21,541 nucleotides of DNA from Candidatus Calescibacterium sp. (lineage in GTDB: Bacteria; Calescibacteriota; Calescibacteriia; Calescibacteriales; Calescibacteriaceae): positions 1-21,541 of the forward strand of contig JANXBU010000022.1 in the NCBI GenBank assembly GCA_025060505.1, given 5' to 3'. Positions 720 to 20,670 of the stretch are shown piece by piece. Numbering within the stretch: the first letter of the stretch is position 1; each line of letters starts with the position of its first letter. Position numbers and translations under genes: made by a program. The notes beneath the pieces were generated by a model. That model did no database searches and was not told the origin of the DNA. It worked only from the letters and a program-made list of their open reading frames with translations.

Positions 720-3700
720 ATGAGCTTGGATACTAAAAAAGTTATTTTATCGTTCTTTGTACTATTTATTTTTGTTACCTTTTCTGTATCATATTCTGTT
801 GATAATCTTGATTCACGGATTTCTGAGAAGAGGAGTGTGATAAGTTGTGGTAAGAAGTATGGAGGCGGAGGGGGAGGTGAAAGCGGAGATGTGGGGGGTG
901 GGGGAGGAGGAAGTGTAGTTGATCAGGGATATGTTCTTTTGAGAATAAGAAATTCAAATAGTCTTTCTCCTGTTGAGGGTGTTCAGGTTTATGTAAATGG
1001 AACGGCTACTGCCTTATCATCTGAGGAAGGAACAGTTTATTTTTCCGTTCCGCCGGGGGACTACAATATAAGACTTGTTAAACAATCTTATGCTCCATAT
1101 ACATTCAAAATAAAGGTATCAAAAGATGAAATTTCCGCTTTTGATGTGAATCTTTCTCCGTATCGTTTTTCCGCATCTTTCAATGCGTTGACTGGAGGAG
1201 AGGTGAAGGATGTAAATACTGGTCTGAAAATAGTATTTCAGGGAGGAGGTTTGAAAAGAAAGTCAGATGGAGCAATTCACACAGGTAATGCGTCAATATA
1301 TATATCTTATCTTGATCCACAGGTAAGCTCACAGCTCTTTGCGTTCCCCGGAAACTTTGTTGGAGTTCAGAATGGTGAAAAAGTTCTTCTTGAAACATTT
1401 GGACCAATTGAGGCGAGAATTGTTTCCGAATCCGGGCAGGAGCTTGATCTTCCATCAGGTGTCACAGCATATATAGAATTTCCTGTTCCAGATTCTTTAA
1501 GGGGTGTGGTTCCGGCATCTGTTCCACTCTGGTCTTTCAACGAGAATACTGGTGAATGGATGTATGAAGGAGTTTTGGTCAAAAGGCTCAATGAAGACGG
1601 AAAAGAAGTTCTCAGCGGATACGTTTCTCATTTCTCTTGGTGGAATCCAGATATTCCGTCTGAAACAACATGCGTGCAGGGAGTTATAAAAGATGAGAAA
1701 GGAAATCCAATAGCTGGTGCTCAGGTTTGGTCGGAGGGTGTGGATTATACAGGGGCAGATTTCACCGGAGCTTCAAGAAAAACTGGTGCAGATGGTAAAT
1801 TTTTTGTCTTTATAAGAAAGGGCTCAAAAGCAAAAATTGTGGCGAACGTAAATGGTGTAAGAAGAGAACTTAGAGTAGTTCAAACAGCCAATACCTATCC
1901 TTCCTACTATCTGAAAGATTGGATGCAAAATCCTTCGTCTGCCTGGAACGTGTGTCCTTCGGAGGGAGACTTTGTTATAAGAAATATAAAAATAATTCTG
2001 AGATGGGGTAATAAGAGGTGTGATCTTGATTTACATATAACCGGACCAACTTCAAGTGGAAGATTTCACGTTGCCACGAAATTGTGGGGTAGAGTGAATT
2101 CTAATCCATACGCAGAAATAGAGGGAGATGATTATCCAGAGATGGCTTATATTGATGCATCTTTGCCTGGAGTATATAGAGTTTCTGTTTTTGCTAATAA
2201 TCCAAATAACACCTGTTGTGGTAGACTTCTGAAGGATTCAGGAGCTCTGATACAGGTTTGGCATCGTGGGAGAGTTGTATTTACAGCAAGTCCACCTCCG
2301 CATGCAAGTGGTGATCTGTGGAAGGCAATAGACATTACCGTTAGTGCAGATGGAAATATCTCAATAACTGAAATAAGACAAATCGTAGATGGGGATTATT
2401 GCGCTCCGTATCATCCAAATCCTTCGGATGAAAGACCTTGTCCAACAAACGGTAATCCATCTGTGATTTTTTCTGTTCCATCTGAGGTTGACGGAGCTTC
2501 TACAGTTTATATCCCATACTATGCTTCAGATCCTGATGGAGATAACATCAAAATCAGGGTTTTTCAAGATGATCAGCAGTGTGGAGGAGGTGGCGGAGGC
2601 CAGTGCTCAGATTATAAATACTGTGAAGATGATCACGGAGATTTCGTTCAGGGCAACGGCTACATCAAGTGGAGTGTTCCTGATGTAAAAAGTTCAAAAA
2701 CAACCAAACTCATATTCAGGGTAGAAGACGGTAGAGGAGGAGTCGCGACATACTCTTATGCGGTTACTATTAAAGTTCCAACAATATATAAGATTTGGGA
2801 AAACACTACTCAGATTGCTGGTTCTGTTTTTTGGGATAGTGAAATTTTGGCTTCAACTGAGACAATCTATGCGATAGCTGACCAGTGGTGGGCTGACCCG
2901 GTTATACGAATATCAAAAGATGGTAGTATCACAAACCAGAGAAATTTCGCTCGTGTCTTTGATATAGCGGTCACCTCTGATGGAGTTTACGTTGCATATG
3001 ATCTTGGTGGGGGGATTTTCGGACTCGGAAAATATTCTCTTGACCTTGCAACTGCTGTGTGGGAGGTTGCTCTCACAACTAACGGAAGACATTTTGCTAA
3101 AATACATCCTACATCAGACGGGCTTTATGTTATCTTCTCAACAACGTCAAACTATATCATAAGAAAATATTCAGGTTCTGGGACTATTGTTTGGGAAACA
3201 ACATCTGCAAGAGCAGGAAGTGTTTCAAGATGTCATGATAGATGTATGAAAATTAATCCTGTGAATGGAGATATATATGTTAGTATTTTCGAAGATTTCA
3301 CATCTGGTTCAGACCAGCAGAGGATATTGAGGATTTCAAGCTCCGGCAGTATTCTTTCAACTAAGTTTTTCTATGATTGGTCTCCCGTTGTTGTTTTACC
3401 ATATGGAAATTCGGTATATGTCGTTCGTCTCTGGCTGCTTCTTGAAAGATATGATGCTAATCTGAATAATCTTGCAAGTTCTGTCAATATCTGGTCTTAT
3501 CCACAACTTGAAGATTTTTGGATCTCTGAGCTTTTCGTTCAGGGTGGCTATCTTTACGGTGTTGGTGGAAAATCATTCTATAATGAAAACTTAGAGTTCG
3601 TCAGAGAATCCATGACCGTTACAAAGTTTGATATGAACCTAAATCTTGTTTATGGTAAGGTTTTGGGTATATCTACTGTTGCTGACTCTGAGAGATTATT

Positions 3701-3797
3701 CAGTGCTGTTATATCTGGAAACTACCTTTATGTAGTTGGTGGATATCAGGTTTCTAACATATTCTATCCACTTGTTGCAAAATATAAGATTCCATAG
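720..3797 (+). CDS. Large secreted multidomain protein with carboxypeptidase-regulatory-like, CILP-like, DUF2135-like and beta-propeller-like regions
   Basis: This 1025-residue protein begins with a Sec-type signal peptide (hydrophobic core FFVLFIFVTFSV, no lipobox). Two hexaglycine runs follow (about 47-64). Next is a carboxypeptidase-regulatory-like beta-sandwich (about 71-147: GVQVYVNGT, PPGDYNIRLVK). Residues 150-311 resemble the region after such domains in CILP-like proteins, ending SHFSWWNP. A second regulatory-like domain (about 317-388: QGVIKDEKGNPIAGAQV) is followed by a YfaP/DUF2135-like domain (about 423-550: LRWGNKRCDLDLHITGP). An Ig/cadherin-like domain (about 580-690: ASDPDGDNIKIRV) contains a third hexaglycine run between cysteines. 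The last about 330 residues have repeated short beta segments (IYAIAD, GVYVAYD, GLYVIFS, LYVVGG), suggesting a beta-propeller. It is probably a cell-surface or secreted adhesion or sensing protein; no catalytic motif is visible. The ATG at 720 fits the signal peptide. The gene converges on rimP. Confidence 0.75.
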   Translation: MSLDTKKVILSFFVLFIFVTFSVSYSVDNLDSRISEKRSVISCGKKYGGGGGGESGDVGGGGGGSVVDQGYVLLRIRNSNSLSPVEGVQVYVNGTATALSSEEGTVYFSVPPGDYNIRLVKQSYAPYTFKIKVSKDEISAFDVNLSPYRFSASFNALTGGEVKDVNTGLKIVFQGGGLKRKSDGAIHTGNASIYISYLDPQVSSQLFAFPGNFVGVQNGEKVLLETFGPIEARIVSESGQELDLPSGVTAYIEFPVPDSLRGVVPASVPLWSFNENTGEWMYEGVLVKRLNEDGKEVLSGYVSHFSWWNPDIPSETTCVQGVIKDEKGNPIAGAQVWSEGVDYTGADFTGASRKTGADGKFFVFIRKGSKAKIVANVNGVRRELRVVQTANTYPSYYLKDWMQNPSSAWNVCPSEGDFVIRNIKIILRWGNKRCDLDLHITGPTSSGRFHVATKLWGRVNSNPYAEIEGDDYPEMAYIDASLPGVYRVSVFANNPNNTCCGRLLKDSGALIQVWHRGRVVFTASPPPHASGDLWKAIDITVSADGNISITEIRQIVDGDYCAPYHPNPSDERPCPTNGNPSVIFSVPSEVDGASTVYIPYYASDPDGDNIKIRVFQDDQQCGGGGGGQCSDYKYCEDDHGDFVQGNGYIKWSVPDVKSSKTTKLIFRVEDGRGGVATYSYAVTIKVPTIYKIWENTTQIAGSVFWDSEILASTETIYAIADQWWADPVIRISKDGSITNQRNFARVFDIAVTSDGVYVAYDLGGGIFGLGKYSLDLATAVWEVALTTNGRHFAKIHPTSDGLYVIFSTTSNYIIRKYSGSGTIVWETTSARAGSVSRCHDRCMKINPVNGDIYVSIFEDFTSGSDQQRILRISSSGSILSTKFFYDWSPVVVLPYGNSVYVVRLWLLLERYDANLNNLASSVNIWSYPQLEDFWISELFVQGGYLYGVGGKSFYNENLEFVRESMTVTKFDMNLNLVYGKVLGISTVADSERLFSAVISGNYLYVVGGYQVSNIFYPLVAKYKIP

Positions 3798-7127: not shown

Positions 7128-9155
7128 TTAATCTGGATCACACTTTTTGTTTGAGCAGAGCTGATATATTTTTCCTTCTTCATAAAATCTTTTTTGTATT
7201 TCAAGAACTGGTAGGACGCATCGTGGAACTTCGTGTGGTGGGATGTATTCTCCTTCATTTGGCAACATAGGCCACCATCTTCTTACGATTTTTGATTTGG
7301 GGTCGGGTTTCTTCAAAAATTCAAGCGAGACGTTTTCATATTGGTATTCCGGAATGCCCTCAAGCTTTGGATCGACCTGTAAGTATCCGCTTCCATCATA
7401 TCCTGCGCTCGCATCAACTTTTTCGATTCCAAATACATCTTCTGGGAGTTCGGCTATTGCTGGTATTCCAGCTGTTCTTACAAAGGCTCTCGTGGCGAAG
7501 TTGGCAACTTGCTCATCGTACAGTGCTTCACGGTAAATTATTTTCTTTGGAGTTATGTCAAACTCTTTACTCCCTCTTGTTATGTATGTTGCAAATGTTA
7601 TTGGATCTAAAATGTCAAAGAGAATCTGAACTATTGCCATAACTTTTTTCACTTCAATTTCCCACTCGGGTCCTGATGGATACAAGAATGGTCTTAATCT
7701 ATCCCAAGATCTGTTTCTCTCAAGCATAGATGTCCAAACTCCTCCACCAACATCAAGAACTCCAAGCTGAACATCTTTCGTCAAGGTCATAAATATACTA
7801 CCCTGAATTGATCCGTTAGAAATTCCGTAATACACGGGATTCTGAGTATCTATATTGAAGTTTCCTGTTCTGTTTTTTATCTCATTCCAGAACTCATTTT
7901 TCTTGATCAGTATAGCCAGAGAAAGAAAGTTTGCATGACCCTGTTTAAGGTTATCTGTTATGTATTCAACTATTTGAACCATGTGTCTTTTTTTAGCAGA
8001 TGCGGAATCAAATATCTCTGAAAGAGCGTTTATATCTATTCCTACCCAGTTTGATCCTATAACGGGTGTGCAGAAATATTCTGCGGAGAAAATTATGTTG
8101 TGAGAATCAAGTTCAGCTGTGCTTCCAAAGAGTCCATGCCCGAAAATCATAGGTTTAAAATAAGATGTAGGATTAGCAAATGTGCATCGTGGTATATTGA
8201 GCAGAAATTTAGCTTCAAAGTTTCCTGAGCCATCAACTTTTGGTGCGTAAAACCTTCCAACAACTGCTTTCTGTATAAGATTTCTGTATACTTCTGGTAT
8301 GTTTTGCCTGTTGATATGTGGTAGATCTTTTACTTCATCAATTATGAAAGTTATTTTATCCTGATACTCATATACTTTTTTTCTAACTTCAAGCATATGT
8401 TCTTTCAGTATTTTTTCCTCGGACGCTGTTTTGAAATCCCAAGCTACAAGAAGCTCGTTTCGTTTTATGCCTTGGGATTCAAGGAATGACATAATCTGAT
8501 TGAAGTGTTCCTTCCATTTTCCAACGTCCTGATTTGTTCCGGAGACTTTTATATCTTTGTTTTCCAAAACTGCTTTGAAAAACAGTGGGGATTGAATTTC
8601 TTTTCCTTCGGAATCCTTTAAACCCTTCTTCATAACGACAATGTATCTTGAACTTGTTTTCATTCTTTTGAGTGGTCTTATGAAGAGTATTTGAAATGGA
8701 GGGCTGGATCTTGCATCTGGTTCGGCAAAAACCGGTATTCTCTCACCAGTTCCATATTCTATCAGTTGTATTGCTGATCTTTCATCGGTGGTTTCTTCTG
8801 GTTTCGGTAGAGAGTTTCTAGAAAAACCTTTTGGATACCAGAACATAATTTGATTTGCGGGTGAGAAACCATCGAAGCTGTTTATTCTCTCAAGGTTCAT
8901 CTCCGGATAGCCTTCTGGTTTTTTGAAAAGTTCTTTTGGTATGTTCAACTTTCCGTTTGAATAAAACTGAGTGAATGGAAATGGAAAGAAACACTCATCT
9001 TTTACTTCGTCTGGTTCATTTTCGTATTTTGAAAGTATATTGCAGTTTTCTTTGGGGTATTTTATACTCACGGTTTCTGTTTTCTCTCCGGAACAACTTG
9101 AAATTACCGCTGCTAGAGCAAGACACAAATATATGAGTTTTTTCCCTCTGTTCAT
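7128..9155 (-). CDS. Secreted lipoprotein with alpha/beta-hydrolase (lipase-like) fold
   Basis: This 675-residue protein has a type II signal peptide. After MNRGKK and a hydrophobic stretch, the lipobox ends ISSC with Cys21 as the lipidated residue. GHGLFG (339-344) looks like the HG oxyanion-hole motif of lipases. GISNG (444-448) is a GxSxG nucleophile elbow with Ser446. The later stretch YDEQVANFATRAFVR resembles the acid/His-side region of a large extracellular lipase-like family that I associate with Myxococcota and relatives (from memory). The N-terminal part (about 30-240) carries an Ig-like segment. It likely acts on ester substrates at the outer membrane or cell surface; the real substrate is unknown. 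The ATG at 9153-9155 has no SD but has TATAAT 8 nt upstream. The gene is divergent from the polysaccharide locus. Confidence 0.75.
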   Translation of the reverse strand: MNRGKKLIYLCLALAAVISSCSGEKTETVSIKYPKENCNILSKYENEPDEVKDECFFPFPFTQFYSNGKLNIPKELFKKPEGYPEMNLERINSFDGFSPANQIMFWYPKGFSRNSLPKPEETTDERSAIQLIEYGTGERIPVFAEPDARSSPPFQILFIRPLKRMKTSSRYIVVMKKGLKDSEGKEIQSPLFFKAVLENKDIKVSGTNQDVGKWKEHFNQIMSFLESQGIKRNELLVAWDFKTASEEKILKEHMLEVRKKVYEYQDKITFIIDEVKDLPHINRQNIPEVYRNLIQKAVVGRFYAPKVDGSGNFEAKFLLNIPRCTFANPTSYFKPMIFGHGLFGSTAELDSHNIIFSAEYFCTPVIGSNWVGIDINALSEIFDSASAKKRHMVQIVEYITDNLKQGHANFLSLAILIKKNEFWNEIKNRTGNFNIDTQNPVYYGISNGSIQGSIFMTLTKDVQLGVLDVGGGVWTSMLERNRSWDRLRPFLYPSGPEWEIEVKKVMAIVQILFDILDPITFATYITRGSKEFDITPKKIIYREALYDEQVANFATRAFVRTAGIPAIAELPEDVFGIEKVDASAGYDGSGYLQVDPKLEGIPEYQYENVSLEFLKKPDPKSKIVRRWWPMLPNEGEYIPPHEVPRCVLPVLEIQKRFYEEGKIYQLCSNKKCDPD

Positions 9156-9481: not shown

Positions 9482-10315
9482 ATGAATCAGATAACAGTAA
9501 TTAAGCCAAGAGATAGGTTAAGCTTAAGAAACATTTATGATTCTTTCTCGGAGGTTATAAAGTACTGGGAGCTTTTATATTTTTTCATATGGAAAAATGT
9601 AAAGGTAAGGTACAAAAGAACTTTTGTTGGTATTGGTTGGGCTGTGGTTCAGCCATTTATGACTATGGTTGTTTTTACGATTTTTTTCGGTAAGCTTGCG
9701 AAGCTCCCTTCTTATGATTTACCATATCCTATTTTTTATTACTCTGGTTTGCTTTGTTGGGGATATTTTTCAAGTTCCGTGCAGAATGCTACTGCATCAA
9801 TTATATCAAACAGGGGAATAATTACAAAAGTATATATACCAAGAATGATTTTTCCTATTTCTGCTGTTCTTTCAGGTCTTGTGGATTTTGTTATAGCTTT
9901 TGGAATGTTTTTGGTCCTGATGGTGATTTACGGTATACCGTTTGGTATTCATTTTGCATTTTTCCCTGCTTTTGTTCTGCTTAATATTTTTGCAGCTTTG
10001 AGTTTGGGCATATGGCTTTCTGCTCTGAATACTCTTTACCGAGATGTCCAGTACCTTGTTCCATTTCTTATACAGATTTTGCTTTTTGCATCCCCGGTTG
10101 TTTATCCTGCAAGTATGGTTCCTGAAAGTCTGAGATTTTTTTACGGACTTAATCCCATGGTTGGGGTGGTTGAGGGTTTTCGGTGGTCTTTAACAGGTGC
10201 AGGTCAGCCTTCTGGGGTTCATCTTTTCTCATCACTAATAACTATGTTTTTTATTTTTATAGGTGGTTTGGTATATTTTAAGAAGGTTGAGACAAAGATA
10301 GCCGATGTCGTATAG
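9482..10315 (+). CDS. wzm: O-antigen/polysaccharide ABC transporter permease (Wzm-like)
   Basis: This 277-residue ABC-2 type permease moves undecaprenyl-linked polysaccharide across the inner membrane with Wzt. The start has the family's N-terminal amphipathic segment and the motif WKNVKVRYKRTFVGIGWAVV (about 37-56), followed by about six hydrophobic helices (for example TMVVFTIFFG, ISAVLSGLVDFVIAFGMFLV, FLIQILLFASPVVYP). LNPMVGVVEGFRW is also typical. Length is normal. The ATG has no SD but is the only start giving the full N-terminus. The 3' end overlaps the wzt start by 11 nt, as expected for a two-gene transporter unit. It is the first gene of the rightward locus. Confidence 0.93.
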   Translation: MNQITVIKPRDRLSLRNIYDSFSEVIKYWELLYFFIWKNVKVRYKRTFVGIGWAVVQPFMTMVVFTIFFGKLAKLPSYDLPYPIFYYSGLLCWGYFSSSVQNATASIISNRGIITKVYIPRMIFPISAVLSGLVDFVIAFGMFLVLMVIYGIPFGIHFAFFPAFVLLNIFAALSLGIWLSALNTLYRDVQYLVPFLIQILLFASPVVYPASMVPESLRFFYGLNPMVGVVEGFRWSLTGAGQPSGVHLFSSLITMFFIFIGGLVYFKKVETKIADVV

Positions 10316-11579
10316 TGATACAGCCATAAGGGTTGAGAATTTGAGCAAGCTTTATTACATAGGGGAGGCCGAGAAATACTACGCTTTGCGAGATGTATTT
10401 TCAGACTTTTTCAGAAGCTTGTTCCGTCTGGGCGGGAGAAAAAAGAAGGTAAGAGAGCAGATCTGGGCTCTGAAAGATGTATCATTTGAGGTAAAGCGTG
10501 GTGAGGTTGTTGGTATAATTGGCAGAAACGGAGCTGGAAAATCAACGCTTCTCAAAATTCTATCAAGAATAACAGAGCCAACTCAAGGATATGCTGAGAT
10601 ACACGGTAGAGTTGGTTCATTGCTTGAAGTGGGAACAGGTTTTCATCCAGAGCTTACAGGGAGAGAAAACATATACTTCAGTGGTGCAATACTTGGAATG
10701 AAGAAAAAGGAGATAGATAAAAAATTTGACGAGATAGTAGCTTTTGCTGAAGTTGAGAAGTTTATAGATACACCGGTAAAGTATTACAGCAGTGGAATGT
10801 ATGTTCGTTTGGCTTTCGCTGTTGCAGCACATCTTGAGCCGGAGATTTTGCTTGTTGATGAAGTTCTGGCAGTTGGCGACGCAGCTTTTCAGAGAAAGTG
10901 CCTTGGAAAAATGGGCGAGGTTGCAAAGGGAGGAAGAACGGTTCTTTTTGTGAGCCACAATATGGGTATGATAACTTCTTTGTGTCCAAGGGCTATTTTA
11001 CTTGAAAACGGGAGAATCGTTGCAGATGGTGTAGCATCTGAAACTGTTCTGACCTACTATACCAGAGATAGGGCTTCTCCTTACAAAGTGGACTTCACAA
11101 AGATGGGACAAAAAGTAGGAGATGAGTTTGCAACACTACTTGAAGCACATATTGAAGATATGTATGGAAACGTTGTATCAGAAGTAGATATGCGTCAGCC
11201 TTTTAAGGTCAAGATGCGCTATGCTTTACATAAGAATGTTCCTCGCTCACCGTATCCTAACTTTCATTTTTTTGACTCACGAGGGGAGTATGTTTTTGTT
11301 TCAAGCGGAAATTCTGATTCTTCTAAAGAAGTAGGAATATATGAGGCGGAGTGTACTGTTCCAGGAAATCTTCTCAACAACGGAGTGTATTTCATAGGCC
11401 TTGCTCTCACTTTTACTCACAGTGGAATACACGTAAGTTTCTTTGAGAGAAATGCTCTTTCTGTAAGCGTCAAAGATCCAATAGATGAAACCTTAGATAC
11501 TCTAAGAAGTGGCTACAGCGGACCTATCCCGGGACCAGTCAGACCCAAATTAGAGTGGAAGATTTCAAGAATACAGTGA
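10305..11579 (+). CDS. wzt: Polysaccharide ABC transporter ATP-binding protein with C-terminal glycan-recognition domain (Wzt-like)
   Basis: This 424-residue ATPase partners Wzm. Walker A is GRNGAGKST (73-81), the signature YSSGM (161-165), Walker B ILLVDE (181-186) and the H-loop His218. EVGTGFHPELTGREN is typical of polysaccharide exporters. After about residue 260 there is a roughly 160-residue beta-rich C-terminal domain like Wzt-C of E. coli O8/O9a, which reads the modified non-reducing end of the finished chain. Exporters lacking this domain are shorter. Its presence suggests that the chain made here carries a terminal mark, for which the two methyltransferases downstream are candidates (inference). 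The last residues (PGPVRPKLEWKISRIQ) look like an extended tail. The ATG overlaps wzm. Confidence 0.93.
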   Translation: MSYSDTAIRVENLSKLYYIGEAEKYYALRDVFSDFFRSLFRLGGRKKKVREQIWALKDVSFEVKRGEVVGIIGRNGAGKSTLLKILSRITEPTQGYAEIHGRVGSLLEVGTGFHPELTGRENIYFSGAILGMKKKEIDKKFDEIVAFAEVEKFIDTPVKYYSSGMYVRLAFAVAAHLEPEILLVDEVLAVGDAAFQRKCLGKMGEVAKGGRTVLFVSHNMGMITSLCPRAILLENGRIVADGVASETVLTYYTRDRASPYKVDFTKMGQKVGDEFATLLEAHIEDMYGNVVSEVDMRQPFKVKMRYALHKNVPRSPYPNFHFFDSRGEYVFVSSGNSDSSKEVGIYEAECTVPGNLLNNGVYFIGLALTFTHSGIHVSFFERNALSVSVKDPIDETLDTLRSGYSGPIPGPVRPKLEWKISRIQ

Positions 11580-11730: not shown

Positions 11731-12504
11731 ATGAAGGTTGTAATTTTGGCCGGAGGTTTCGGAACGCGACTCGCAGAGGAAACTGAAAGAATCCCAAAAC
11801 CTATGGTGGAGATCGGAGGTAGACCGATTCTCTGGCATATTATGAAACACTATGCTCACTATGGTTTCAAGGAATTCTTTATTGCACTGGGATACAAAGG
11901 AGAGGTGATAAAACGATATTTTCTTGAGTATTATCGTATGAACACAGATATAACCATCAATCTTGCAACAGGTGACGTTATGACTCAGGGTACGAGAAAA
12001 GATGACTGGATTGTGCATCTTATAGATACAGGTTTGAACACCCTAACAGGAGGGCGCGTCAAGCGACTTGAGAAGTGGCTTAAAGGAGAAACATTCATGA
12101 TAACATACGGCGATGGTGTGAGTGATATCAATTTGCAGGAGCTTCTGAAGTTCCACCGCTCTCATGGAAAGATAGGTACTGTCACCGCTGTTCGTCCGCC
12201 AGCCAGATTCGGTGGTATTATTTTCAACGGAGATATGGTTTACAAATTCACAGAGAAACCTCAGATTGGCGAAGGATGGATAAACGGTGGTTTTATGGTA
12301 TTTGAACCGCGAGTTTTTGATTACATACAGGGAGACAACACGAGTCTTGAAGCAGATGTTCTTGAAAGTCTTGCAGATGATGGTGAGCTTGCAGCTTTCA
12401 AGCACGAAGGTTTCTGGCAATGTATGGATACACTGCGCGATGTTCGTTTGCTCGAGAGCCTCTGGCAGAGTGGAAAACCTCCCTGGAAAGTTTGGGATTC
12501 TTGA
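11731..12504 (+). CDS. rfbF: Glucose-1-phosphate cytidylyltransferase
   Basis: This 257-residue enzyme makes CDP-glucose from CTP and alpha-D-glucose-1-phosphate, the entry step to CDP-6-deoxyhexoses. The nucleotide-binding start VILAGGFGTRLAEETERIPK (4-23) with KPMVEIGGRPILWHIM is diagnostic. Other RfbF features are YYRMNTDITINL, ITYGDGVSDINL (metal-binding Asp), the EGWINGGF region and FWQCMDTLRD near the C-terminus. Length equals the family norm (about 257). It is followed at 59 nt by its pathway partner, the CDP-glucose 4,6-dehydratase. There is no SD before the ATG, but the start fits the family exactly. Confidence 0.96.
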   Translation: MKVVILAGGFGTRLAEETERIPKPMVEIGGRPILWHIMKHYAHYGFKEFFIALGYKGEVIKRYFLEYYRMNTDITINLATGDVMTQGTRKDDWIVHLIDTGLNTLTGGRVKRLEKWLKGETFMITYGDGVSDINLQELLKFHRSHGKIGTVTAVRPPARFGGIIFNGDMVYKFTEKPQIGEGWINGGFMVFEPRVFDYIQGDNTSLEADVLESLADDGELAAFKHEGFWQCMDTLRDVRLLESLWQSGKPPWKVWDS

Positions 12505-12563
12505 ATATCCTAGAAAATAAATTTGGAAGCTTCTGATTGAGTTAAGAAACTCGGAAAATTTGA

Positions 12564-13565
12564 ATGAATCTGATGGAAGATAAATTCTGGAAAGATCGCA
12601 GAGTTTTTGTGACGGGAGCCACTGGTTTTATAGGCTCTTGGCTTGTAAGAGAACTTCTCAAGCATGGAGCTTATGTTGTTGTTCTTGTAAGAGATATTGA
12701 TCCACAATCTGAGCTTTACAGAAGCGGTGATATAGGTCGCGTTCATGTTGTCAGTGGGTCTCTTGAAGATTTTCTTACTTTGCAGAGAGCCATTGTTGAG
12801 CATGAGACTACAACGGTTTTTCATCTTGGAGCTCAGACTCTTGTTGAGGTAGCTTACAGATTTCCTCTTCAGACATTTGAGTCAAATATTCGCGGAACAT
12901 ACAATCTTCTTGAAGCTTGCCGTATTCATAGAGATATAGTTCAGCAGATAGTTATTGCATCAAGCGATAAAGCTTATGGAGAAAAAACCAGTCTTCCATA
13001 TACAGAAGATATGTCCCTTGAAGGAAGATATCCATACGATGTTTCAAAGAGCTGTACAGATCTTATTGCTCAGTCATATTACTATACATACAATATGCCA
13101 GTGGCTATTGCAAGGTGTGGCAATGTTTATGGTGGAGGAGATCTTAACTGGAGCAGAATAGTTCCCGGAACTATAAGGTCGTTTCTTTTCAAGCAAAATC
13201 CGATCATAAGGAGCGATGGGACTTATCGGAGAGACTACATATATGTAAAAGATGTTGTAAGAGCTTATATGTTGCTTGCTCAGAAACTGGACTTACCGGA
13301 AGTTCAGGGGCAAGCCTTCAATTTCAGCACAGAAAAACCTCTTGCGGTTCTGGAGATTGTATCTATAATACAGAAGCTGATGAATGCTTACGACCTTGAA
13401 CCAAAGATACTCAATTACGCAAAAGCGGAAATCAGAGACCAGTTTCTTTGTTCAAAGAAAGCTCGTGAAGTTCTGAATTGGCAACCTCAGTTTGATATAG
13501 AAGCCGGAATTACGGAAACCATAGATTGGTATCGGAAGTTTTTTGAATCTAAGTATGGTGCGTGA
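12564..13565 (+). CDS. rfbG: CDP-glucose 4,6-dehydratase
   Basis: This 333-residue extended SDR enzyme converts CDP-glucose to CDP-4-keto-6-deoxyglucose with bound NAD+. The Rossmann motif is GATGFIG (18-24). The active site is SSDKAYG (133-139) and YDVSK (158-162). SDK rather than SEL favours CDP-glucose dehydratases over GDP-mannose dehydratases. GNVYGGGDLNWSRIVPGTIR is also characteristic of RfbG. Its place after rfbF supports the substrate. A second ATG at codon 4 could equally serve as start. The 3' end overlaps the next gene by 11 nt, implying co-translation. It is slightly shorter than typical RfbG (about 350-360) without an obvious domain loss. Confidence 0.93.
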   Translation: MNLMEDKFWKDRRVFVTGATGFIGSWLVRELLKHGAYVVVLVRDIDPQSELYRSGDIGRVHVVSGSLEDFLTLQRAIVEHETTTVFHLGAQTLVEVAYRFPLQTFESNIRGTYNLLEACRIHRDIVQQIVIASSDKAYGEKTSLPYTEDMSLEGRYPYDVSKSCTDLIAQSYYYTYNMPVAIARCGNVYGGGDLNWSRIVPGTIRSFLFKQNPIIRSDGTYRRDYIYVKDVVRAYMLLAQKLDLPEVQGQAFNFSTEKPLAVLEIVSIIQKLMNAYDLEPKILNYAKAEIRDQFLCSKKAREVLNWQPQFDIEAGITETIDWYRKFFESKYGA

Positions 13566-14793
13566 TGAAATTATATCTGCGTGCAGAATCTGTGGATCAG
13601 ATAACCTCAAACTTATTTTATCTCTCGGTAATATGCCTCTTGCGAATGCTTTTTTGAGACCGGAGCAGCTCGGGGATCCAGAAGATCGATATCCTCTTGA
13701 TGTAGTTTTCTGTCAAAAATGCTCTCTTGTTCAGATTACTCAAACTGTTTCACCAGAAAAGCTTTTCAGAGAGTATCTATACTTTTCTTCTTTTTCAGAC
13801 ACAGTTTTGCGTAATGCAAAGGAGATCTCAGAACGTGTTATATCTCAGTTCGGTCTTGGTTCAGAAAGTTTGGTAATTGAGATAGCGAGCAACGATGGAT
13901 ACTTGCTTCAGTTTTATCATCAAAGAGGAATCCCGGTTTTGGGTATAGAGCCTGCTTATAACATAGCGAAAGTTGCTCAGGAAAAGGGTATAAGAACGAT
14001 CTCGGAGTTCTTTGGTCGGAGCCTTGCTCATAAACTCCTGGAGCAGGGTATCAAGGCAGATGTTGTTCACGCTAACAACGTTTTGGCTCATGTGGCAGAT
14101 CTTCATAGCTTTGTTGAAGGAATTTACTTGATTCTCAAGCAAAGTGGTGTTTGCATTATAGAAGTTCCGTATATAAAAGATCTTATAGATCACCGTGAGT
14201 TTGACACTATATATCACGAACATCTTTGTTATTACTCACTGACCTCTCTTGATAAGCTCTTTCGTATGCATGGTTTGGTTGTTTATGATGTTGAAAGAAT
14301 ACCAATTCATGGTGGCTCTATTAGAATTTTTGTTGCAAAGGAAGGTTCAAGAGAAGTTTCGCATTCAGTGAAAAACACTCTTATTGATGAGAGAGATTGG
14401 GGCGTAAATAATTTTGAGTTTTATGTAAGGTTTGCTGATCAGGTTCAGGCGTTAAGATACAAAATTCGTGAAACACTCTTTTCATTGAAACAAGATGGAA
14501 ACAAAATTGCAGCTTACGGTGCTGCTGCCAAGGGAACAATCCTTTTGAACTACTGTGGTATAGGAAGAGAAACAATTGACTTTGTTGCGGACAGAAACCC
14601 AAAAAAGCAGGGACTTTACATGCCGGGAGTTCGCATCCCTATATATCCAACATCAAAGATTTTGGAGGATATGCCTGACTACCTTTTTATTTTGGCTTGG
14701 AACTTTGCAGATGAGATTATAGATCAGCAGAGGGATTATCAAAGAAGAGGTGGAAAATTTATAATACCTGTTCCGGAGATAAGAATTTTATAG
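13555..14793 (+). CDS. Sugar C-methyltransferase (NovU/TcaB9-type, SAM-dependent)
   Basis: The protein has about 412 residues with the three-part layout of nucleotide-sugar C-3 methyltransferases. An N-terminal zinc-binding domain has Cys10, Cys13, Cys53 and Cys56. The SAM-binding Rossmann domain carries VIEIASNDGYLL (107-118) and GIEPAYNIA. The C-terminal domain has AAYGAAAKGTILLNY. DTIYHEHLCYYS (217-228) holds the Tyr-His-Glu-His cluster that I recall as catalytic in TcaB9. It should transfer a methyl to the carbon next to the 4-keto group of the CDP-sugar, giving a branched deoxysugar (inference from context). A TTG start at 13543 is possible, but I chose the ATG at 13555, which begins the family homology. 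It overlaps rfbG by 11 nt. Confidence 0.9.
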   Translation: MVRDEIISACRICGSDNLKLILSLGNMPLANAFLRPEQLGDPEDRYPLDVVFCQKCSLVQITQTVSPEKLFREYLYFSSFSDTVLRNAKEISERVISQFGLGSESLVIEIASNDGYLLQFYHQRGIPVLGIEPAYNIAKVAQEKGIRTISEFFGRSLAHKLLEQGIKADVVHANNVLAHVADLHSFVEGIYLILKQSGVCIIEVPYIKDLIDHREFDTIYHEHLCYYSLTSLDKLFRMHGLVVYDVERIPIHGGSIRIFVAKEGSREVSHSVKNTLIDERDWGVNNFEFYVRFADQVQALRYKIRETLFSLKQDGNKIAAYGAAAKGTILLNYCGIGRETIDFVADRNPKKQGLYMPGVRIPIYPTSKILEDMPDYLFILAWNFADEIIDQQRDYQRRGGKFIIPVPEIRIL

Positions 14794-14800
14794 ATTTGCC

Positions 14801-15394
14801 ATGCGATTTTTGGAGGTTGGGCTTGACGGAGCTTTTGTGATAGAGAGTGAATATTCTGAAGACGAGCGTGGTTTCTTTGCCAGAGTTTTTTGTCAAAAGG
14901 AGTTTGGGAGTTATGGTGTAGAATCTCAGGTTGTGCAGAGCAACATTTCTTTCAACAGAAAAAAGGGTACTTTACGAGGAATGCATTATCAAGCAGAACC
15001 TTATCAGGAAGCAAAGCTTGTCTGTTGTGTTCAGGGAGCGATATACGATGTTATAATAGATATTCGTCCTGAGTCAAAGACATTCAAGCAGTGGGTTGCG
15101 GTTCTGCTTTCTCCATATGGTACAGACATAGAAAAGTACAGAACAATATTGCCGAAAAAATGTATTCTTGCTCGGCCGGGTAGTTTTCTCTACATTCCAG
15201 AAGGTTTTGCACACGGATTTCAGACCCTTGAAGACAACACCATAATTTTTTATCACATGTTTGAGTTTTACAGTCCTGATGCATCTCGTGGAATTCGTTG
15301 GAACGATCCTGCGTTTGGTATACTCTGGCCCCTTGAACCGACGGTTATTTCTTCAAGGGATAAAAGCTACAAGGATTTTGAGTCGCAAACTTGA
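14801..15394 (+). CDS. RmlC-like nucleotide-sugar 3,5-epimerase
   Basis: This 197-residue cupin of the dTDP-4-dehydrorhamnose 3,5-epimerase family keeps the catalytic residues. His62 is in LRGMHYQ, Lys72 is ten residues later, His138 is in FAHGF and Tyr151 is at the expected distance. GIRWNDP near 164-170 is also typical. Unusually, about 18 extra residues (about 105-124) sit before LYIPEGFAHG, where standard RmlC has a short turn. With no rmlA or rmlB in the window and an adjacent CDP-sugar pathway, the likely substrate is the CDP-4-keto-6-deoxyhexose (C-methylated or not) rather than dTDP-4-keto-rhamnose (inference). It starts 7 nt after the methyltransferase stop. Confidence 0.9.
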   Translation: MRFLEVGLDGAFVIESEYSEDERGFFARVFCQKEFGSYGVESQVVQSNISFNRKKGTLRGMHYQAEPYQEAKLVCCVQGAIYDVIIDIRPESKTFKQWVAVLLSPYGTDIEKYRTILPKKCILARPGSFLYIPEGFAHGFQTLEDNTIIFYHMFEFYSPDASRGIRWNDPAFGILWPLEPTVISSRDKSYKDFESQT

Positions 15395-15449: not shown

Positions 15450-15578
15450 ATGAAATTGCTTCTGGTAGATTTTGGATTGTTGGCATATGAATTGCTTTAT
15501 CTTCTGATTAATATGACTCTTCAACGTAAGGCTATAAAATGTAGAATTATTGATGAGGAAACTATCTTTTTGGTATGA
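15450..15578 (+). CDS. Possible 42-aa small protein coupled to the ATP-grasp gene
   Basis: The frame starts at ATG 15450 and encodes MKLLLVDFGLLAYELLYLLI and then a basic/acidic tail ending ETIFLV. Its TGA overlaps the ATP-grasp start as ATGA, the usual layout of translationally coupled genes. Residues 1-22 are hydrophobic enough for a membrane-associated helix. The frame is open back to a TAG at 15399-15401, so a longer or alternatively started form is possible. I do not recognise it, and there is no good SD. It may be a small real protein, a leader, or a chance ORF in a 180-nt gap. Confidence 0.3.
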   Translation: MKLLLVDFGLLAYELLYLLINMTLQRKAIKCRIIDEETIFLV

Positions 15579-16612
15579 TTAATTCAGGAGTAAATGTTCT
15601 GATTGCTGGAATCGGTGGAGCTTCACTGGGAACTGAGATTTTTAAGTGCCTAAGGATTGCAGGAGGATACAACATATATGGGTGCGATATTTCAAAGTAC
15701 GCATATGGGCATTATCAAGAAGGTTTTGTAAGAACATTTTTGGTAGATAGAATCAAATATATAGATTCAGTAAAGCAGATATGTTTGGACTACGGAATCA
15801 AGGTGGTTGTACCTGGGGGTGAAGAGCCATCAATTCTTATGAGTTCGTCTGTTGAAGAATTCGAAAAAGAAGGAATTTTCATTGCCGGAAATTCTCCAGA
15901 AGTTGTAAGGATTTGTTCTGACAAAGCTATGCTTTTTAAGAAGCTGGAGGAGTTAGGGGTACCAATACCAAAGACATTTGTAGTTAGTTCTGAAGATGAT
16001 CTTAGAAAGTATGAAATTCCCTATCCTTGTGTTGTTAAACCTGCTTCTGGAACGGGAGGTAGTCATCTTGTATTTTTTGCAAGAAATCCGGAGGATGCCA
16101 GAATGTATGCAAGGTATATTCTTGAGAATGGTGCTGTTTCTCTTGTTCAGGAATATATAGGCCTGGATGAAGGTGAGTACACAGTAGGAGTTTTATCTTT
16201 GACAGATGGTTTTCTGGTTGGATCAATTGCTATGCAAAGAATTTTTCATACAAAACTTTCCATAGCCCTGAAGCTCAAAGACGCCTTGATATCAAGCGGA
16301 TATAGTCAAGGTCTCATAGAAGATTTTCCAGGGATCAGGGCGCAAGCTGAAAAAATATCTAAAATTCTTGGGAGCAGGGGACCTATGAACATACAAGGAA
16401 GAGTCAAAAATGATGTTTTTCTGCCTTTTGAAATCAACCCACGTTTTTCCGCATCAACTTATCTCAGAGCTTTAGCGGGTTTCAATGAGGTTGATATGTT
16501 TATTAGGTACATTATTTTCGGCGAGAAACCAAAGCATATATCTATCAGACCTGGATATTATTTAAGAAGTTTTTCAGAGTTGTATGTTCCAAAGGAAGAT
16601 TTGAAACAATGA
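15575..16612 (+). CDS. ATP-grasp ligase, CarB-like fold
   Basis: This 345-residue protein has a pre-ATP-grasp Rossmann-like N-terminus (VLIAGIGGASLGTEIFKCL). The ATP-grasp core has Lys155 in CVVKPASGTGG (152-162), VQEYI (191-195) and the metal-binding FEINPRFS (285-292). The stretch PMNIQGRVKN resembles the CarB-type subfamily. ATP-grasp enzymes activate a carboxylate as acyl-phosphate and join it to an amine, thiol or other nucleophile. It is far too short for carbamoyl-phosphate synthase. In this locus it probably acylates an amino sugar or sugar acid (inference). The ATG overlaps the stop of a 42-codon ORF. Its own end overlaps the next gene by 4 nt (ATGA), so the two products are probably functional partners. 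Confidence 0.82.
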   Translation: MINSGVNVLIAGIGGASLGTEIFKCLRIAGGYNIYGCDISKYAYGHYQEGFVRTFLVDRIKYIDSVKQICLDYGIKVVVPGGEEPSILMSSSVEEFEKEGIFIAGNSPEVVRICSDKAMLFKKLEELGVPIPKTFVVSSEDDLRKYEIPYPCVVKPASGTGGSHLVFFARNPEDARMYARYILENGAVSLVQEYIGLDEGEYTVGVLSLTDGFLVGSIAMQRIFHTKLSIALKLKDALISSGYSQGLIEDFPGIRAQAEKISKILGSRGPMNIQGRVKNDVFLPFEINPRFSASTYLRALAGFNEVDMFIRYIIFGEKPKHISIRPGYYLRSFSELYVPKEDLKQ

Positions 16613-17865
16613 TCAATTGGATAACAGAATATATTGGAACAGCTTCTTGGGATGAAGTTGCAAAGTCCCAGATTTTGTCAGACGTATCCATACTTGATGT
16701 TCGCGATCTTGTAGATAAGCAAGGAAATACAAAAGATCTAGTTTCATCAAAAATAGAAGAAGGACTGAAGTATCTTAATCAAGGAAAAAGAGTTGTTATC
16801 TGCTGTGATTATGGGGTATCTCGAAGCAATGCAGTTGCTGTTGGAATAATATCAAAGTATGAAAATATAGGTTTTCAAGAAGCTCTCAACCGTGTTGTTG
16901 AGAAAACCGGACAATCTCAGATAAGGCTTGAGGTTCTTTCGGTGGTCAGAGAAGTTTTGGGCTGCAGATCTGATATATCTACAGAGGAAAAGGCTCGAAG
17001 AAGAATATTGATAACAGGATCTTCCGGTTTCATTGGTTCTTCGCTTCTGAAATTTATCAATTCAGATTGGTTTATCGTGGCTCCATCGAGGAAAGATATT
17101 GATTTGACAAAAGAATACTTGAAATTAGAAATGCTCGTAAGGGAAAAAGGAATAGACACTATATTACATCTTGCAAATCCGAGAATTTATGGGACAAATG
17201 AATCTCTTGCGGTGACTCTTTTGATGTTGAAAAACGTTCTAGATGTATGTATACAAAATAATCTGAGGCTGATATACCTGAGCAGTTGGGAGATTTTTTC
17301 TGGTTACAAAAGCAGCGAGCTCATTGCAGATGAGGCTCTACCTCCAAGACCAGGGGGAACTTATGGGCAGACCAAATTTTTAGCCGAGAAGCTAATAGAG
17401 CACTATCATAGCCAATATGGTTTGCGGTTTGTGATTTTACGTTCTAGCCCAGTTTATGGACCAACAGGTGAGCGGCCTAAATTTATCTGGAACTTTTTAG
17501 ACAAAGCAATGCGCAATCAAGACATAGTTGCTCACAAATACCTGAACGGATTTCCGAAATTGGACCTTCTGTACATTGACGATTTGTGTAAGGCAATAGT
17601 TTCTGCTGTTGAGCATGATGTCGAAGGATTCTTCAATATCGGAACTGGAATCGGAACTTCTACAACAGATGTCGCTTACTACATAATACAAATTGTTTCA
17701 TCTAAAAGTATAGTCAAACATATACAAATAGAAGCATATGCGAGCAATGTTATTATGGACTACAGACGAGCACAAGTTTCTTTAAATTGGAATCCTTCTA
17801 TAAATGTTTATCAGGGTTTGGAAAAATTGATAAGTCTATCTTACGGTGATAAAAATAAGGATTAG
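16609..17865 (+). CDS. Fusion of dual-specificity-phosphatase-like domain and SDR NAD-dependent epimerase/reductase
   Basis: This is a 418-residue two-domain protein. Residues 1-118 resemble a dual-specificity phosphatase: VVICCDYGVSRSNAVAVGII (62-81) holds a CX5R P-loop with Cys66 and Arg72. Cys replaces the usual His before the catalytic Cys. Asp30, Asp33 or Asp36 could supply the general acid. Residues 131-413 form an extended SDR with GSSGFIG (137-143), SSWEIF (225-230), YGQTK as YxxxK (252-256) and the RSSPVYGP motif. It may epimerise or reduce a nucleotide sugar. It is also the only unassigned SDR near the CDP-branched-sugar genes, so it could be their missing 4-ketoreductase. The phosphatase role is unknown. 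The start overlaps the ATP-grasp stop. No stop or frameshift separates the domains, so the fusion is encoded as one protein. Confidence 0.85.
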   Translation: MINWITEYIGTASWDEVAKSQILSDVSILDVRDLVDKQGNTKDLVSSKIEEGLKYLNQGKRVVICCDYGVSRSNAVAVGIISKYENIGFQEALNRVVEKTGQSQIRLEVLSVVREVLGCRSDISTEEKARRRILITGSSGFIGSSLLKFINSDWFIVAPSRKDIDLTKEYLKLEMLVREKGIDTILHLANPRIYGTNESLAVTLLMLKNVLDVCIQNNLRLIYLSSWEIFSGYKSSELIADEALPPRPGGTYGQTKFLAEKLIEHYHSQYGLRFVILRSSPVYGPTGERPKFIWNFLDKAMRNQDIVAHKYLNGFPKLDLLYIDDLCKAIVSAVEHDVEGFFNIGTGIGTSTTDVAYYIIQIVSSKSIVKHIQIEAYASNVIMDYRRAQVSLNWNPSINVYQGLEKLISLSYGDKNKD

Positions 17866-17868
17866 ATT

Positions 17869-18660
17869 ATGAACAAAGATGACAAAAATGAAGATGAAGA
17901 GGTAGAGCGCTTCTGTATGCTTGATCCTCGTAATCAGACGGAAAAGGATAGAGAGTTTTCAAAAGGTATGGCGGTATATTTTAAAAGGAGTATTGGATCA
18001 ACTATGGATAAGTTGAGAAACTTCACGAAGTATGTTCCAAGGCAAACTCTGAGCTTGTTTCTTGCCAAAAATGAAATATTCAAAAAAATTATAGGTATTC
18101 ATGGATACATTATTGAGTGCGGTGTATTTTTAGGCGGAGGATTGATGGCATGGGCACAGCTTAGTGCTATATACGAGCCTTATAATCACATCCGGCGCGT
18201 AGTTGGTTTTGATACGTTTACTGGTTTCCCAGAACTTTCAGACAAAGATAAATATGATCCTGTTCTAAATGCAGAAGAAGGAGGATTGGCTACCTATGCT
18301 CTGGATGATATAAAAGAGTCTATAAGATTATATGATCTGAACAGACCGATTGGTCATATTCCAAGGGTAGAGATAGTTGTTGGAGATGCTTTGAAGACTA
18401 TCCCAGATTATGTGAAAAACAATCCGCATTTGGTAGTTGCTCTGTTGTATCTTGACTTTGATCTTTATGAGCCTACGAAGGTGGCGATTGAGAACTTTCT
18501 ACCTCGAATGCCAAAGGGAGCTGTTATAGCTTTTGATGAACTAAATCAGGCAAGTTGGCCCGGTGAAACTCTAGCTGTTTTGGAAACTATTGGAATACGA
18601 AATCTTAAAATAGAGCGTTTTCCCTTCGCTCCTCAAATATCTTTTGCTGTTTTAGATTAA
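17869..18660 (+). CDS. TylF/MycF-type O-methyltransferase
   Basis: This 263-residue SAM- and metal-dependent methyltransferase has IIECGVFLGGGL (81-92) as the SAM site, GFDTFTGFPEL (113-123), LLYLDFDLYEPTKVAIE (192-208) with acidic metal ligands, and AFDELN (221-226). This is the macrocin O-methyltransferase pattern. Family members methylate sugar hydroxyls of macrolides, and many homologues sit in O-antigen loci, so a polysaccharide hydroxyl or nucleotide sugar is the likely acceptor. The N-terminus (about 1-25) is strongly acidic and may be disordered. It starts 3 nt after the fusion gene, with AAGGA 7 nt before the ATG, one of the better SDs here, indicating the same operon. Confidence 0.9.
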   Translation: MNKDDKNEDEEVERFCMLDPRNQTEKDREFSKGMAVYFKRSIGSTMDKLRNFTKYVPRQTLSLFLAKNEIFKKIIGIHGYIIECGVFLGGGLMAWAQLSAIYEPYNHIRRVVGFDTFTGFPELSDKDKYDPVLNAEEGGLATYALDDIKESIRLYDLNRPIGHIPRVEIVVGDALKTIPDYVKNNPHLVVALLYLDFDLYEPTKVAIENFLPRMPKGAVIAFDELNQASWPGETLAVLETIGIRNLKIERFPFAPQISFAVLD

Positions 18661-18764: not shown

Positions 18765-19502
18765 ATGGATAAGCAAGAAGAGTTTCAGGAACAAAGAAAA
18801 AAGATCATACAACAGATCATCAACGATGATGATTTAAGGAAGTTGTCTATCAAATGGCTGGAAATTTTAACACGTTGCAGATATTCGTATAATTTTGATT
18901 GGTTAGGTCGCCCGATAATACAGTTGCCACAAGATATTATAGCTATTCAAGAAATTATTTGGAATGTAAAACCAGATTTGATTATTGAAACGGGTGTTGC
19001 ACATGGTGGAGGACTCATCTTGTATGCTTCAATATTGGAGTTGATATCAGGACCCGGCCATGTTTTGGGAATAGATATTGAAATACGCCCGCATAATCGA
19101 AAGGCCATTGAAGAACATCCTCTTTCAAAAAGAATATCGCTCATAGAGGGATCATCTGTGGATCCGGAAGTTGTGAGAAAGGTCTATAAATTCTCCGAAA
19201 ATAAGAATAAAGTTATGGTAATACTGGATTCGCTTCATACGCATGATCACGTTCTGAAGGAACTGGAGCTATATTCACCTCTTGTCAAAAAGGACAGTTA
19301 CATAGTAGTTTTTGACACATCTATTGAAGATTTACCGGATGACCTTTGGTCTGACCGCCCTTGGAAAAAGGGAAACAATCCGAAAACAGCAGTATATGAG
19401 TTTCTCAAAACCAACGATAGGTTTGTGATAGATAAAGAAATTCAATCCAAGATTCTGATAACTGCTGCGCTAGATGGTTATTTGAAGTGTGTAAAGGATT
19501 AA
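18765..19502 (+). CDS. CmcI-family (cephalosporin hydroxylase-like) SAM-dependent methyltransferase
   Basis: This 245-residue protein has IIETGVAHGGGLILYAS (73-89) as the SAM-binding site, GHVLGIDIEIRPHN (97-110) and VMVILDSLHTHDHVLKEL (151-168). These are signatures of the CmcI / rhamnosyl O-methyltransferase family. CmcI takes part in cephamycin 7-methoxylation, but family members in surface-polysaccharide loci are thought to be sugar O-methyltransferases, and that is the likely role here. A 104-nt gap separates it from the TylF-like gene. No SD precedes the ATG; CATAAT lies 16-21 nt upstream, a weak promoter hint. Two different methyltransferases in a row suggest two modified hydroxyls or a methyl cap. 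Confidence 0.88.
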   Translation: MDKQEEFQEQRKKIIQQIINDDDLRKLSIKWLEILTRCRYSYNFDWLGRPIIQLPQDIIAIQEIIWNVKPDLIIETGVAHGGGLILYASILELISGPGHVLGIDIEIRPHNRKAIEEHPLSKRISLIEGSSVDPEVVRKVYKFSENKNKVMVILDSLHTHDHVLKELELYSPLVKKDSYIVVFDTSIEDLPDDLWSDRPWKKGNNPKTAVYEFLKTNDRFVIDKEIQSKILITAALDGYLKCVKD

Positions 19503-19548
19503 ATTTAGTATTTAAAAGATTAATCAGATGGAAAATAAAGGACGCAAA

Positions 19549-20670
19549 ATGATACCTATCGCTGGACCCTGGATCACTCAGAAGGAGGTAGATTATGTTG
19601 CAGATGCTGCAGCTAATGCTTGGTACGAGAATGCTAACATTTACAACGAGAGATTTGAAAGAGCCTTTGCCAAATACATCGGTGTCAAGTACGCTGTTTC
19701 ACTACCGTCTTGCACTTCTGCTATACATCTTGCTTTGTTGTACTACAAAATAGGTCCTGGAGATGAGGTGATAGTTCCAGATATAACATGGATAGCTACT
19801 GCTGCTCCAATATCATACGTTGGAGCTACACCTGTGTTTGTTGATATAGATCCAAAAACTTGGTGTATTTCTCCCGAATCTATTGAGGCAAGAGTAACGA
19901 GAAGAACCAAAGCTATCATTCCGGTTGATCTCTATGGAAATATTCCAGATATGGATGCCATTTACGATATTGCTTCCAGATATAACTTAGTGATAATAGA
20001 GGATGCAGCAGAGGCTATTGGGTCAGAGTATAAAGGCAGGAAAGCCGGTAGCCTTGGAGATATAGGGGTTTTTAGCTTTCATGGAACTAAGACTTTGACA
20101 ACTGGCGAGGGAGGTATGCTGGTTACCAACGATGAGAATGCATACAAAAGAGTTCTTTTTCTGCGTGATCATGGGAGGGCACCGGGTGAGAAGATGTTTT
20201 GGAATACAGAAGTTGCATACAAGTACAAAATGAGTAGTTTGCAAGCCGCATTAGGACTTGCTCAGCTTGAGCGTATAGAGGAACTAGTTGCTAAAAAAAG
20301 ACTTATATTCTCCTGGTACAAAGAGGAGCTCAAAGATTTTGAAGGTATAAGTCTCAACTATGAAGGTTCAGATGTCAAAAACACATACTGGATGGTAACT
20401 GCTATCATTGATCCGTCTTTTGGTATAACGAAGGAAAAGCTCATATACCTCTTGAGAGAACACGGTATTGATTCAAGACCATTTTTTTATCCTCTTAGTT
20501 CTCTTCCGCCTTATGAGCATTTGGATCAGGCGAAAGTTGCACGAGAGCTAAACAAAGTGAGCTATCAGATAAGTCCATATGGCATAAATTTACCTTCTGC
20601 CCTAAATCTAACTCGCGAGCAAGTGAAGTTTGTATGTGACACACTGAAGAAAATTCTATTGAGTAAGTAG
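19549..20670 (+). CDS. DegT/DnrJ/EryC1 PLP-dependent sugar aminotransferase (perosamine-synthase-like)
   Basis: This protein of about 373 residues transfers an amino group, usually from glutamate, to a keto-sugar nucleotide. Counting from the upstream ATG at 19528, the PLP-binding Lys is K188 in FSFHGTKTLTTGEGGMLVTN, the cofactor Asp is D159 in IIEDAAEAIGSEYKG, and PGDEVIVPDITWIATA (77-92) is typical. Similarity to GDP-perosamine synthases is strong (IPVDLYGNIPDMDAI, LQAALGLAQLERIEEL). However, the family's NYRMTN is KYKMSS here, so the sugar may differ. The likely substrate is a 4-keto-6-deoxyhexose. I prefer the ATG at 19549: MIPIAGP matches family starts and AAAGGA lies 6 nt before it. The ATG at 19528 would add seven residues. 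It is the last gene before a terminator-like hairpin. Confidence 0.93.
   Translation: MIPIAGPWITQKEVDYVADAAANAWYENANIYNERFERAFAKYIGVKYAVSLPSCTSAIHLALLYYKIGPGDEVIVPDITWIATAAPISYVGATPVFVDIDPKTWCISPESIEARVTRRTKAIIPVDLYGNIPDMDAIYDIASRYNLVIIEDAAEAIGSEYKGRKAGSLGDIGVFSFHGTKTLTTGEGGMLVTNDENAYKRVLFLRDHGRAPGEKMFWNTEVAYKYKMSSLQAALGLAQLERIEELVAKKRLIFSWYKEELKDFEGISLNYEGSDVKNTYWMVTAIIDPSFGITKEKLIYLLREHGIDSRPFFYPLSSLPPYEHLDQAKVARELNKVSYQISPYGINLPSALNLTREQVKFVCDTLKKILLSK

Follow-up and report, generated by a model that had tools for sequence, protein, structure and literature searches.

The locus analysed here raises the question of why a phosphatase-like domain should be joined to an SDR. An intact open reading frame of 418 amino acids at positions 16609-17865 (+) of the window, by which we mean the whole 21,541-nucleotide stretch of Candidatus Calescibacterium sp. 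DNA, encodes a dual-specificity phosphatase (DSP)-type domain followed by an extended SDR. To our knowledge, no characterised protein has its domains in this order. A literature search retrieved no description of a DSP-SDR fusion or of an SDR/ATP-grasp/phosphatase module, and an earlier mention in a survey of amidoligases (Iyer 2009, cited in PMC3765264) is possible. Judged against the literature, the architecture is new within known families, and its component domains are ordinary.

A DSP-SDR fusion present in two genomes

The same fusion is present in an independent genome (G003), which belongs to another genus of the same family. The two proteins are 46% identical over residues 1 to 416, and the G003 protein keeps Cys66, Arg72, Asp36, Tyr252, Lys256 and the whole GxSRS loop. 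Since a fusion so similar, with the same catalytic residues, occurs in an independent genome, that of the window is not an assembly artefact. Its start codon is preceded by an AAGGAAG stretch and overlaps the stop codon of the ATP-grasp gene upstream, as ATGA; this normal overlap, together with the G003 protein, rules out a chimeric assembly or a frameshift. Thus, the fusion is real and conserved, and the first-pass annotation's worry that the two parts might occur together in a single assembly can be set aside.

Its distribution is narrow. Sampling of 60, and then 386, genomes around the window's own yielded G003 as the sole further carrier. Five of the genomes represent the phylum, and two of these have the fusion. 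No further fusion was detected in about 650 other genomes sampled: none turned up in the 386 diverse genomes from beyond the family, in 275 genomes belonging to another phylum, on plasmids or in viral contigs. The matches in phages covered the SDR part only, and a scan of genome contigs returned one locus, an SDR without a DSP. Other search matches, such as a free-standing DSP (L031), a kinase-like/DSP protein (L036) and a ThiF-rhodanese protein (L042), are not DSP-SDR fusions. The L036 gene (1-1770 of its locus) combines a kinase-like region, aminoglycoside-phosphotransferase-like by eye, with a C-terminal DSP-type domain (HCVGGLGRSG), and is followed by an aldehyde dehydrogenase gene.

The features of the window that are relevant here are the following.

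9482-11579 (+): ABC-2 permease and ATPase with a Wzt_C domain (O-antigen/polysaccharide export)
11731-15394 (+): nucleotide-sugar genes (nucleotidyltransferase, CDP-glucose 4,6-dehydratase-like SDR, C-methyltransferase, RmlC-like 3,5-epimerase), missing around the G003 cassette
15575-16612 (+): ATP-grasp ligase, PRK12767-like (NF009402, 318 bits), whose stop overlaps the start of the fusion; a 52% identical gene adjoins the fusion in G003
16609-16980 (+): DSP-type phosphatase domain of the fusion (aa 1-124), with candidate general acid Asp36 and P-loop Cys66-DYGVS-Arg72
16987-17862 (+): extended SDR domain of the fusion (aa ~127-418), RmlD/Epimerase type, with G137/G140/G143, S225, Y252 and K256
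17869-18660 (+): TylF-like SAM methyltransferase, which adjoins the fusion in G003 too
18765-19502 (+): CmcI/rhamnosyl O-methyltransferase-like protein, inside the window cluster and missing from the G003 cassette
19528-20670 (+): DegT/DnrJ/EryC1 PLP aminotransferase; a relative is next in G003, on the opposite strand

Two other genes of the window encode a predicted secreted protein of 1025 aa (720-3797), which has a carboxypeptidase-regulatory-like domain and, close to its start, runs rich in glycine, and a lipoprotein-like protein of 675 aa (7128-9155) with no Pfam match at 0.001.

The two domains and their predicted catalytic residues

In the case of the SDR domain, the assignment made in the first-pass annotation stands. 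The domain has full length, its GxxGxxG motif is TGSSGFIG (136-143), its YxxxK motif is Y252-GQT-K256, and the Pfam family Epimerase (PF01370) matches residues 133-345 with an E-value of 2e-31. Domain length, TGxxGFxG and YxxxK are thus shared with the extended SDRs of nucleotide-sugar metabolism, such as RmlD and the UDP-glucose 4-epimerase family (PF01370). The fusion differs from these enzymes, however, in carrying an N-terminal phosphatase, in scoring far below the cut-off of any NCBIfam equivalog (the best reaches 72.6 bits against a cut-off of 365 bits, so that it is close to none of them), and in that the usual catalytic serine position, Ser226 in the window, is a glycine in G003; S225 is kept in both. 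An S-R-K sequence following the second SDR strand suggests NADPH as the cofactor.

The N-terminal CX5R motif, also recognised in the first-pass annotation, reads C66-DYGVS-R72-S73. Pfam family DSPc (PF00782) matches residues 55-100 (9e-5), and likewise the G003 protein (1.6e-5), with scores of 22.7 and 25.2 bits, respectively, that lie below the gathering cut-off of 33.5, which is a curation threshold. When the N-terminal 131 amino acids were shuffled 20,000 times, a C..G..R[ST] pattern arose in 30 cases; this low frequency and a predicted fold matching DSPs argue that the motif is more than chance. AlphaFold2, given the N-terminal domain alone and a two-sequence alignment, produced a model with a mean pLDDT of 82 and a pTM of 0.79. 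Foldseek searches of the PDB with this model placed DSP-type cysteine phosphatases on top (ShufPTP/Tk-PTP, E 7e-5 to about 1e-4), and VIA-align gave Z-scores of 14.3, 13.7 and 13.6 for human DUSP28, DUSP18 and DUSP14, the best 50 entries all being DSP-type. The predicted fold is therefore that of a dual-specificity (cysteine) phosphatase, in line with the phosphatase-like fold proposed initially. A Rhodanese/Cdc25-like domain, hinted at by an 'ILDVR' sequence and one rhodanese match, is not favoured, because DSPs account for every one of the best fold matches, although a list of best matches cannot by itself rule out other folds. The full-length model, also built from two sequences, was set aside (mean pLDDT of 56 for the SDR).

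With the DSPs (PF00782; Tk-PTP 5z59/5z5a, DUSP28, DUSP18) the domain shares the fold, at Z of about 13-14, the CX2GX2RS P-loop, and an Asp about 30 residues upstream. In the fusion this is Asp36, 30 residues before Cys66, which is invariant in both proteins, aligns with an Asp of a free-standing DSP, and is likely the general acid. The domain differs from DSPs in its sub-gathering Pfam score, its attachment to an SDR, its compactness (the free-standing DSP of genome G276 is about 20 residues longer) and the absence of the His of HCX5R, which is replaced by Cys65 in the window and by Val in G003. This His is usual among DSPs and is not part of the fold; the free-standing G276 DSP also lacks it.

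A conserved cassette and its phosphatase slot

Comparison of the surroundings of the two fusions shows that they share four genes only: those for the ATP-grasp ligase, the DSP-SDR protein, the TylF-like methyltransferase and the DegT aminotransferase. The ATP-grasp and aminotransferase partners had been overlooked in the first-pass annotation. Judged by eye, the flanks of the G003 cassette look like unrelated housekeeping genes, with a UvrC-like gene upstream and a tRNA nucleotidyltransferase-like and a TsaD-like gene downstream, and neither the other sugar genes nor the export system of the window were found around it. Therefore, the conserved unit is the four genes, and not the whole polysaccharide locus.

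We gathered 48 relatives of the window's ATP-grasp gene by sequence alone and scored their neighbours within 1.5 kb. A phosphatase adjoins 27 of them, calcineurin-like (MPE) in 18 cases, PHP in seven and DSP in two; an ORF with a HAD motif adjoins two more, and no phosphatase neighbour was detected in the remaining 19 of the 48. An SDR is present within this distance in 23 of the 48 loci, and both an SDR and a phosphatase in 17. On the other hand, none of 24 control loci, each centred on an SDR related to the window protein, contained MPE, PHP, DSP or ATP-grasp genes. The difference from these controls, which are SDR loci and not random genes, is significant by Fisher's exact test (8e-7, or 1.4e-4 without the loci that seeded the models), the rows not being phylogenetically independent.

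The gene order varies among these modules. It is SDR, calcineurin-like phosphoesterase, ATP-grasp in genome G229; SDR, methyltransferase, metallophosphoesterase, ATP-grasp on a plasmid of Deltaproteobacterium Smac51; PHP, ATP-grasp, SDR on Sinorhizobium meliloti pSymB and in R. sullae; and ATP-grasp, SDR, metallophosphoesterase in A. noterae. By Pfam, the phosphatases belong to Metallophos/Metallophos_2 or PHP and the SDRs to Epimerase. An ATP-grasp gene, an SDR and a phosphatase are likewise adjacent in both the window and G003. Modules such as those of S. meliloti pSymB and the Smac51 plasmid thus place the same three functions side by side, with homologous ATP-grasp and SDR proteins; their phosphatase, however, is a separate protein of another fold, whereas that of the window is a DSP fused to the SDR. 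The presence of DegT and TylF-like genes is a further feature that sets the cassette of the window apart from most modules. The recurrent neighbourhood of an SDR, a phosphatase (calcineurin-like, PHP or HAD) and an ATP-grasp gene extends over several phyla (loci L098-L118 and L060-L075), often with an adjoining SAM methyltransferase and sometimes with a NeuB-like synthase. As NeuB-like genes adjoin some modules and none is present in the window, we make no claim about nonulosonic acids. A separate ATP-grasp subfamily (L082, L085 and L086), conserved in three genomes, lies beside NYN-like and DHH-like genes, and its loci contain neither a phosphatase nor an SDR.

A maximum-likelihood tree of the 48 ATP-grasp proteins places the DSP-linked pair inside a set of six, supported at 99/99, whose other four members are MPE-linked. 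This nesting suggests that, in a surface-sugar module of ATP-grasp enzyme, SDR and phosphatase, the DSP has taken over the phosphatase slot from a non-homologous enzyme. The SDR of the fusion groups with the module SDRs, apart from 25 control SDRs, its own best matches among them, with moderate support in a quick tree (SH-aLRT 88). The simplest history would be that an SDR/ATP-grasp module was inherited, that its calcineurin-like phosphatase was replaced by a DSP, and that the DSP was then fused to the SDR.

Possible roles of the fused phosphatase

From the folds, conserved residues, four-gene cassette and phosphatase-fold replacement observed, we infer an activity, a substrate, an order of steps and a benefit of the fusion. 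The DSP domain would remove a phosphate from a sugar-like intermediate, with Cys66 as nucleophile, Arg72 as phosphate ligand and Asp36 as acid, and the RmlD-like SDR domain would reduce or epimerise the same or the next intermediate. The DegT aminotransferase would install an amino group, through which the ATP-grasp enzyme would probably ligate the product via an amide, and methylation by the TylF-like enzyme would yield a decorated sugar destined for a polysaccharide or glycan of the surface. We give about an even chance to the core of this scheme, that the fusion works in a small-molecule pathway as a bifunctional enzyme combining a DSP phosphomonoesterase with an SDR acting on a sugar-like intermediate, ahead of ATP-grasp ligation and methylation.

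In other genomes, calcineurin-like, PHP or HAD proteins occupy the corresponding position next to related ATP-grasp and SDR genes, as would be expected if the phosphatase were metabolic and its small substrate common to the modules. Dephosphorylation thus seems to be a requirement of the module that proteins of different folds can satisfy, which suggests that the DSP trims a small sugar-like molecule in surface-sugar synthesis and is not a protein switch. Of the two functions proposed in the first-pass annotation, the coupling of dephosphorylation of a sugar-type intermediate to the SDR step is thereby favoured, and the sensing of phosphorylation state less so. Protein phosphatases are found in each of the calcineurin-like, PHP and DSP families, however, so changes of fold alone do not prove a small-molecule substrate. 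It is this established property of DSPs and of some PHP and calcineurin-like enzymes, together with the ABC-dependent export system within the window, that speaks for a tyrosine or serine/threonine protein phosphatase, which would regulate polysaccharide synthesis by setting the phosphorylation state of the SDR, of the ATP-grasp enzyme or of a component of the export system. We consider such a role unlikely: the conserved unit consists of four enzymes, with no kinase or regulator, and most of the alternative phosphatases are Metallophos_2 proteins directly beside the ATP-grasp gene, as expected of metabolic partners.

The domain might also be catalytically dead or weak and act by binding phosphate or by docking, so that a phosphorylated substrate is held in position for the SDR; the missing His in both homologues and the compact size are consistent with this. 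Yet the two proteins, with an overall identity of 46%, have both retained Cys, Arg, Asp and the GxSRS loop, and in relatives the same slot keeps phosphatase families of the active type, which makes docking distinctly improbable in our view. Another reading starts from the genes at 11731-15394, which resemble a pathway for a CDP-linked 3-C-methyl 6-deoxyhexose: they include look-alikes of a cytidylyltransferase, a CDP-glucose dehydratase, a C-methyltransferase and a 3,5-epimerase, and have no dedicated 4-ketoreductase besides the SDR of the fusion. The SDR could be the 4-ketoreductase completing this CDP-branched-sugar pathway, leaving the DSP as an accessory with a separate job. The G003 cassette is conserved without those genes nearby, however, and the SDR groups with those of the phosphatase/ATP-grasp module, and we regard this reading as very doubtful.

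Among studied gene sets, the nearest to the cassette by gene content is sfmABCDE of Shewanella oneidensis, which is implicated in flagellin modification and in which genes for a reductase, a methyltransferase and a NeuB-like synthase accompany an ATP-grasp gene (PMC3765264). The likeness lies in an ATP-grasp enzyme encoded with a reductase and a methyltransferase; no phosphatase gene is reported there, and the ATP-grasp protein belongs to another subfamily (ATP-grasp_4) than that of the window.

Returning to the metabolic role, we suggest, more tentatively than for the enzyme itself, that bacteria may share an undescribed glycan-modifying module of SDR, ATP-grasp and phosphatase in which phosphatases of the calcineurin-like, PHP, HAD and DSP folds have repeatedly replaced one another, and that here swap and fusion together may have produced one bifunctional protein, both phosphatase and reductase, for a single phosphorylated sugar intermediate. 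If this is true, it would give a bacterial DSP domain a concrete class of substrate in sugar metabolism, not in protein signalling, and would point to a widespread three-function module in surface-sugar clusters. As four unrelated phosphatase folds occupy a single slot, work on any member that is easy to express, such as that of Sinorhizobium meliloti, could identify the substrate they share.
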